A stretch of 64,000 nt of DNA, from assembly GCF_003171515.1 (NCBI RefSeq), contig NC_089391.1, positions 2,604,001-2,668,000 on the forward strand. Direction: 5' to 3'. The notes beneath the pieces were generated by a model, which saw only the letters and a program-made list of their open reading frames with translations, was not told the origin of the DNA and did not search any database. The stretch's first letter is position 1. Every line of letters begins with the position of its first letter. This document shows positions 37,961 to 41,713 of this stretch, piece after piece. This DNA is from Pyrenophora tritici-repentis. Lineage: Eukaryota; Ascomycota; Dothideomycetes; Pleosporales; Pleosporaceae. The position numbers were made by a program, and so were the translations under genes.

Positions 37961-38231
37961 ATGAACGTGGAGTTACTCTTGATCTCAACATAAAACAGAC
38001 TTTCAGCGCTACTTGTAATGATGCAATAGATTGAGTGTAGCATGTTCTTAATAGTAAGTCCCGAAGCGAGTGCTCCACCACATGCTGTGAAATTACGTTT
38101 TAGTGCGTACCGTCTATCGGGTGTATTCCGGTTCCAGGGTGTGCAAACCCTTCCTTCCCCACTCACGTTCCTGCTGCATTTATGTGCACAGTAATATTTA
38201 CATTAATTCAAAATTTCTCTATCAAATCACA

Positions 38232-38430
38232 TCCGATATGTTAGTCTGCCTTAAATCCTCTCATCAGCCTCTTGCTAACAAGCTTCAAGGGTCTAGTGGC
38301 TAGGATTTGCCGCTCTCATCGCAGAGTTAGTTCACTGTTCAGTGCCGGCAAGGCCCGGGTTCGGTAAGCTTCACATCGAGCCTGTCTTCGATTCACACCT
38401 CTAACATTCAATAGATTCCCGGTGTCGGAA
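38232..38430 (+). tRNA. tRNA-Glu(CTC), interrupted by three introns, two of GT-AG type
   Basis: Exonic blocks 38232-38239, 38290-38318, 38345-38363 and 38415-38430 assemble to a canonical 72-nt tRNA-Glu with anticodon CTC at 38315-38317. The acceptor stem is TCCGATA/TGTCGGA (seven pairs, one G-U). The D arm is GTCT-AGTGGCTA-GGAT, the anticodon stem TGCCG/CGGCA with loop CTCTCAC, the variable loop AGGC and the T arm CCGGG-TTCGATT-CCCGG. Insertion 1 (38240-38289, 50 nt) lies after nucleotide 8 and reads GTTAGT...GCTAAC...CAAG. Insertion 2 (38319-38344, 26 nt) is a normal 37/38 intron. Insertion 3 (38364-38414, 51 nt) lies in the T loop and reads GTAAGC...TCTAAC...AATAG. T7 at 38441-38447 is a Pol III terminator. 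Removing only the normal intron leaves a non-functional tRNA. Confidence 0.75.
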
Positions 38431-38440
38431 ACAACCATTC

Positions 38441-38447
38441 TTTTTTT
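38441..38447 (+). terminator. Pol III terminator of tRNA-Glu
   Basis: A run of seven T, ten bases after the discriminator base of the interrupted tRNA-Glu. This is the expected signal and spacing for RNA polymerase III termination. Confidence 0.65.
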
Positions 38448-41611: not shown

Positions 41612-41699
41612 GGTTTTGTAGTGTAGCGGTTATCACTCCGGATTCTGATAGCATGTCAGTAGCTTTCCGGCAACCCCGGTTCGATTCCGGGCAAGACCT
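41612..41699 (+). tRNA. tRNA-Gln(CTG) with 16-nt intron
   Basis: Acceptor stem GGTTTTG/CAAGACC (one G-U), D arm AGTGTAGCGGTTATCACT, anticodon stem CCGGA (41638-41642) / TCCGG (41666-41670), anticodon CTG at 41645-41647, and an intact T arm CCCCGGTTCGATTCCGGG containing the B box. The sequence is close to the well-known yeast tRNA-Gln. A 16-nt intron (41649-41664) sits one base 3' of the anticodon at the canonical 37/38 site, to be removed by the tRNA splicing endonuclease. The discriminator base is T. Confidence 0.92.
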
Positions 41700-41713
41700 C
41701 TTCTATCTGATTC

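Follow-up and report, generated by a model that had tools for sequence, protein, structure and literature searches.

Putative spliceosomal introns in nuclear tRNA genes of Pyrenophora tritici-repentis, some with a B-box core

Can a tRNA gene still be expressed when introns of the mRNA type split both its cloverleaf and its internal promoter? This question is raised by a tRNA-Glu(CTC) gene in a 64,000-nucleotide stretch of Pyrenophora tritici-repentis DNA (NC_089391.1, positions 2,604,001 to 2,668,000; hereafter the window). The first-pass annotation, made from the letters of the window, described the gene as interrupted by two GT-AG inserts in addition to an ordinary intron at 37/38, and its coordinates, CTAAC motifs and T7 run all proved correct on re-reading. 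The overall explanation favored here, to which we assign a probability of about 0.9 on the strength of sequence comparisons, is that U2-type spliceosomal introns would be removed from Pol III pre-tRNAs and that some of these introns carry a B box.

The tRNA-Glu(CTC) gene of the window and its paralogs

Joining positions 38232-38239, 38290-38318, 38345-38363 and 38415-38429 of the plus strand yields a 71-nt tRNA-Glu(CTC), with the discriminator A at 38430. Exon 1 (nt 1-8, 38232-38239) has the same sequence as in an uninterrupted paralog (contig C2, 4387111-4387207). It is followed by a 50-nt GT-AG intron at 8/9 (after nt 8; 38240-38289; GTTAGT..CTAAC..AAG), placed by reading the sequence and by comparison with the paralog; its branch-site-like CTAAC lies at 38275-38279, with the A 11 nt before the intron end. 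Exon 2a (nt 9-37, 38290-38318), which contains the anticodon CTC, and exon 2b (38345-38363), whose 3' end GGTTCG falls within the B box, were delimited by paralog comparison. They flank an ordinary 26-nt 37/38 tRNA intron (38319-38344) that has a diverged counterpart in the three other Glu(CTC) copies. The 51-nt GT-AG intron at 57/58 (after nt 57; 38364-38414) splits the B box, as indicated by a B-box pattern match and by the paralog. Within this intron, recurrence of TTCGA identifies TTCGATTC (38387-38394) as a putative B-box core, and a CTAAC at 38401-38405 reads as branch-site-like. Exon 3 with the discriminator A occupies 38415-38430, as read from the sequence and the paralog. The T7 run at 38441-38447 resembles a Pol III terminator, and the upstream element ATCAA (38221-38225), common to most tRNA genes read, probably marks the start region. 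An arginyl-tRNA synthetase ORF is the neighbor of the gene in the window; over 96% of its length it shows 100% identity to a Pyrenophora tritici-repentis protein.

Removal of the inserts had been claimed to leave a flawless tRNA-Glu. This is borne out by ARAGORN, which scores the gene at 113.5 with the inserts removed and makes no call with them in place, and by the identical exons of the uninterrupted paralog. The interrupted gene was missed by intron-blind ARAGORN and by Rfam at the gathering cut-off. The further claim that the inserts equal this genome's mRNA introns in length holds for the single mRNA intron checked (n = 1, counted by hand), the 52-nt MSH3 intron in the window (GTGAGT..GCTAAC..CAG). 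Pyrenophora was absent from the matches listed for MSH3, of which the nearest named one was Alternaria viburni at 87%.

A genome search with an 18-nt exon piece gave four perfect matches, corresponding to four Glu(CTC) copies. These are the window gene (Glu A; 38232-38430, plus strand; introns at 8/9, 37/38 and 57/58), Glu B (C2:1453954, minus strand; extra intron at 8/9), Glu C (C2:4387182, minus strand; 37/38 intron only, and hence the uninterrupted paralog) and Glu D (C5:347758, minus strand; extra introns at 8/9 and 57/58). A Glu exon pattern allowing up to three mismatches returned 20 matches and its reversed control equally many, so that the signal consists of the four perfect matches; one of the 16 imperfect matches is a tRNA-Asp. 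The four genes carry 0, 1, 2 and 2 extra inserts, and their tRNA exons are identical in all four. The count of uninterrupted Glu(CTC) copies for which the first-pass annotation had called is one in four (Glu C). Identities between 8/9 introns are 35/53 (A-B), 39/50 (A-D) and 33/53 (B-D), and the 57/58 introns of A and D share 38/56; introns with shuffled cores average 62%. On these figures the 8/9 introns of Glu A and Glu D appear plainly related, and the A-B and B-D 8/9 pairs and the A-D 57/58 pair are near the shuffle level. Since the exons have stayed identical in four genes while the 57/58 introns diverged (38/56), this pattern was counted as evidence of selection.

Interrupted tRNA genes across the assembly

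One assembly of 40.9 Mb in 41 contigs was searched, and at least 28 interrupted tRNA genes with 30 GT-AG introns were read in it; 41 uninterrupted calls were obtained among the loci read. The 28 genes are a lower bound drawn from a sample rather than a census, and no genome-wide fraction is claimed. Matches to fetch were picked by eye, some search patterns demanded a T-run, and two pattern searches refer to the matches listed (100 of 221 and 100 of 121). An Rfam tRNA search, in which 63 of 1172 first-look candidates were scored, is no census either: the window tRNA at 41612 escaped it. The 41 uninterrupted calls are 49 unspliced ARAGORN calls minus eight that were set aside, namely the interrupted genes Glu B and Ser(TGA) and six repeat-family copies. 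Three of these copies belong to a SINE-like family of 84 nt and three to a related 99-nt family that ARAGORN labels Arg(CCG).

When the genome was searched for B boxes that a GT..CTRAY..AG insert divides at 57/58, six places matched, as compared to none for the reversed pattern. All six are tRNA genes: Glu A, Glu D, three Gly(GCC) and one Asp(GTC). A wider form of the pattern gave 18 matches versus 22 for its reversed control; seven of the 18 were tRNA genes on reading, and an Arg(TCG) gene was added. Further inserts come from tRNA genes found by their intact B boxes or in passing. In the 5' half, introns were read after nt 10 in two Ala(CGC) genes, after nt 11 in Gln(CTG), after nt 13 in Glu(TTC) and in four Ser genes, after nt 15 in Leu(CAA), and in the D loop of Pro(CGG) and of three Tyr(GTA) genes. 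Further introns lie at 30/31 in Asp(GTC), at 52/53 in Arg(CCG), Leu(TAA) and Lys(CTT), at 53/54 in two Ala(AGC) genes and at 55/56 in Arg(ACG). A- or B-box sites make up 15 of the 18 isoacceptor-site pairs, a share biased by the two pattern searches aimed at 57/58. With anticodon introns of up to 40 nt allowed, ARAGORN made no call at 24 of the 26 interrupted loci submitted; interrupted tRNA genes escape tRNA finders such as this one. The 2013 genome paper gives 129 tRNA genes, and its accessible parts make no mention of such introns (PMC3538342).

Several loci were named by our own reading over the ARAGORN label: the window tRNA at 41612, L102 and L093 as Gln(CTG), L111 and L115 as Arg(TCG), and the gene before Gly in L058 as Arg(ACG). 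The tRNA at 41612-41700 (plus strand) is called tRNA-Arg(TCT) by intron-blind ARAGORN and tRNA-Gln(CTG) with a 37/38 intron, and its relative L093 (C1:7011700-7012021) has a 63-nt GT-AG intron after nt 11. The ARAGORN label Tyr for L022 was rejected, as this gene becomes Arg(TCT) once its intron is set at 37/38. Two tRNA-like stretches with T-runs, L134 and L135 (C3:2073120-2075135), gave no cloverleaf. Contig C41 (183,218 bases) is mitochondrion-like and contains many tRNA genes, some clusters of them twice. About 20 dispersed 84-nt tRNA-like copies of one score (L063, L076, L081, L112 and equal-scoring places) are perhaps the tRNA-Ser-derived SINE described in the accessible parts of PMC3538342. 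The sequence GGTTCGATTCC, followed by CAACA, occurs in pairs spaced 5,500 bases apart, among them C1:465007 and C1:470507; long terminal repeats flanking an element of this length would be spaced likewise.

Splice signals, polymerase and function

Comparison with uninterrupted paralogs fixes each insert without assuming splice signals, leaving two to four possible placements. A GT-AG placement was possible for 14 of 14 inserts, as compared to 0.125 expected in all; these comparisons leave out Asp, Glu(TTC), Ala(AGC) and the genes with no close uninterrupted relative. The exons were identical to those of the paralogs in 13 of the 14 comparisons and matched at 34 of 37 positions in the remaining one. 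In the 29 introns measured, the donor is always GTNNGY and a CTAAY is always present, the distance from its A to the intron end being 9-17 nt. Lengths range from 50 to 63 nt (n = 29), with a median of 55 (n = 28); the 30th intron, in Ser(GCT), was read by eye and stands outside all intron feature counts. For the ARAGORN check of spliced genes, GT-AG ends and CTRAY were imposed as a condition and are not a result of that check. The GT-AG ends, the extended donor and a branch distance within the fungal range are those of U2-type introns at the sequence level. That range is given as 6-36 nt in the accessible part of PMC5832005. With ends, donors and branch motifs this uniform, the spliceosome is the machine indicated, and the extra inserts are best read as U2-type spliceosomal introns in nuclear tRNA genes. 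Invasion of a Pol III gene by spliceosomal introns, as proposed in the first-pass annotation, is strongly supported, and the proposal extends to many tRNA genes.

Cleavage of the extra introns by the tRNA splicing endonuclease, as thought for the non-canonical introns of archaea and Cyanidioschyzon, is very improbable. That enzyme is not known to need GTNNGY and CTAAY. A complete bulge-helix-bulge central helix, searched for in one simple geometry, occurs in none of the 29 introns; shuffles give 0.86, so the structure is absent rather than depleted. What this alternative can call upon is that archaea and nucleomorphs do have introns at non-canonical positions, and three of them in one gene (PMC4090602, accessible parts).

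Most spliceosomal introns sit in Pol II transcripts, and this usual home is what speaks for a Pol II origin of the interrupted tRNAs, with the introns still spliceosomal. Signals around the genes argue otherwise. A run of at least five T follows 26 of 26 interrupted genes, including nine of nine whose search required no T-run, whereas the background is 2% per 45 nt. ATCAA occurs within 50 nt upstream of 17/26 interrupted and 20/23 uninterrupted genes against a background of about 5%; its lower frequency in the interrupted genes counts against the preferred reading, and one locus (L133) was left out of this count as its start anchor failed. No TTTT occurs in the 29 introns, whereas shuffles average 6.5 introns with one (P = 0.0004), as transcription by Pol III would require. 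For TTTTT alone, with 1.6 expected, avoidance falls short of significance (P = 0.17). The T-runs, ATCAA and TTTT avoidance fit Pol III. Together with the B-box cores inside B-box-splitting introns, the T-runs directly behind the genes, the absence of intronic TTTT and the upstream ATCAA shared with uninterrupted genes disfavor the idea, also raised in the first-pass annotation, that Pol II makes the gene, and we consider it unlikely, with a small chance only slightly above that of the endonuclease.

The interrupted genes might also be dead copies that have received insertions. This would be compatible with the uninterrupted genes found for Glu(CTC) (one of four), Gly(GCC) (three of six read), Lys(CTT) (four of five read) and some others. 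An uninterrupted gene is the easiest target of a search with spliced tRNAs, and a DNA search with seven spliced tRNAs, in which 13 of 13 candidates were scored, found three Tyr genes, all interrupted. Because of its insert, each was matched only from nt 21 onward. Leu(TAA), Leu(CAA), Pro(CGG) and Arg(CCG) were represented by one gene each, and every one of these is interrupted, as are both Ala(CGC) genes and the one Ser(TGA) gene. No uninterrupted Tyr or Leu(TAA) copy was found in this search, which was not exhaustive: a like search missed Glu A and Glu D, which lie in four pieces each, and found the uninterrupted Glu copy first. Tyr(GTA) alone decodes UAU and UAC, and Leu(TAA) alone decodes UUA. 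These genes must therefore work, unless further copies are absent from the assembly or from the search. With all Tyr genes and the only Leu(TAA) gene found interrupted, dead copies are very unlikely, as unlikely as endonuclease cleavage; the unbroken exons, identical to paralogs in all comparisons but one, and the uniform splice signals also argue against them. The marks of tRNA pseudogenes, namely degenerate exons and intact genes covering the function, do not describe what was found.

Spliceosomal removal from Pol III transcripts, the preferred reading, would proceed as follows. Pol III would make a pre-tRNA that starts upstream of the gene and ends at the T-run. The spliceosome would excise the GT-AG introns of 50-63 nt, probably before T-arm folding and end processing, and the tRNA endonuclease would take out the ordinary 37/38 intron. 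Where the B box is broken at 55/56 or 57/58, a second, intronic B-box core would replace it as the TFIIIC site; at 52/53 and 53/54, the last intron bases, read across the 3' junction, would restore the box in full or almost so. It is likely that nuclear tRNA introns include a third class, made up of spliceosomal introns that have spread through tRNA genes and lie mostly in the A and B boxes. Tyr and other essential tRNAs would then exist only after spliceosomal splicing, and some introns would carry the Pol III promoter element that they displaced. If so, tRNA synthesis would depend on the spliceosome, tRNA supply would be tied to spliceosome capacity, and some transcripts would require the tRNA endonuclease as well as the spliceosome. 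This raises the question of how an uncapped Pol III RNA with a first tRNA exon of 8 nt is recognized.

Internal promoters and known systems

The B box is interrupted by eight of the introns, of which seven lie at 57/58 and one at 55/56. TTCGA occurs in seven of these eight, 27-32 nt before the intron end, as compared to none of the 21 others (Fisher 5e-6), a motif that was noticed first and tested post hoc. Among the 57/58 introns alone it is present in six of seven; shuffles average 0.3 and never exceed four in 20,000. B-box cores are a feature of the B-box-splitting introns, and they are weak as full boxes: when the full 11-nt box is scored, five of seven intronic B boxes are individually not significant, and a score of 7/9 (P = 0.015) is reached by Tyr 2, one of the 21 introns outside the B box. 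At 52/53 the terminal AG precedes GTTCGA, rebuilding the B box across the 3' junction, and at 53/54 it precedes TTCGATTCC, giving a B box one base off. Some tRNA introns seem to rebuild a promoter. In fission yeast U6, the B box is located inside the intron. The best reading of the present pattern is that some introns carry a B box that would restore the Pol III promoter. The A box speaks against a promoter restored in this way: for the 16 introns in the 5' half, the best match before splicing loses one point of eight relative to the spliced gene in 11 cases, is equal in four and higher in one, and no replacement A box stands out.

The exception without TTCGA is the Gly gene of L058 (C4:2537271). 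An interrupted Arg(ACG) gene ends 13 nt before it, no T5 separates the two, and the Gly gene may share a transcript with this preceding gene. A second close pair, Ser(GCT)-Ser(AGA), is found at L140 (C1:8051435-8051900) and may also be a two-gene transcript. The pairs are 13-15 nt apart with no T5 between, and all four genes of the Arg(ACG)-Gly(GCC) and Ser(GCT)-Ser(AGA) pairs are interrupted.

Known systems were compared through the accessible parts of the cited papers. As here, fission yeast U6 snRNA has an mRNA-type intron spliced from a Pol III transcript (PMC10484740); U6 is one gene, whereas 28 tRNA genes are concerned here, some with two extra introns, and many of the same transcripts also contain tRNA endonuclease introns. 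The best U6 match in the P. tritici-repentis genome is full-length with no break, a point against the preferred reading. Fungal U3 snoRNA resembles the present case in its GT-AG introns, RCTRAY branch sites, small structured RNA and paralogs with and without the intron, but it is no tRNA, and an interrupted internal promoter is not described in the accessible parts (PMC5832005). Lichen fungal rDNA likewise has spliceosomal introns outside Pol II transcripts, but these are in Pol I transcripts, and "tRNA" is absent from the accessible text (PMC8527467). Archaea, red algae and nucleomorphs share D-arm and T-arm introns, several per gene; these are either attributed to the splicing endonuclease or given no explanation, those of one nucleomorph measure 3-24 nt, and "spliceosome" is absent from the accessible text of the review (PMC4090602). 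GT-AG introns in nuclear tRNA genes were not named among the literature matches listed, a search with most subscription papers outside its scope, and were not seen in the accessible parts of PMC13149111 and PMC11782384.

The first-pass annotation named introner-like insertions as a possible origin. Introner-like elements of Dothideomycetes, the same class, are similar in the parallel gain of short spliceosomal introns (PMC4457414, accessible parts). They multiply as related copies, whereas the median pairwise identity of the tRNA introns is 0.64 (406 pairs) versus 0.62 for shuffled cores, with some related pairs: among the 14 pairs of highest similarity, eight surpass the shuffles (P of 0.003 or less). 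Scans of viral contigs for relatives gave no match. Gain or loss of introns has left a natural record in the paralogs, whose exons are identical although they carry 0, 1 or 2 introns. Leu(TAA) and Arg(CCG) (L116 and L100) have 52/53 introns that look alike, with 40/57 identities as a raw count, and that were possibly copied between tRNA genes.
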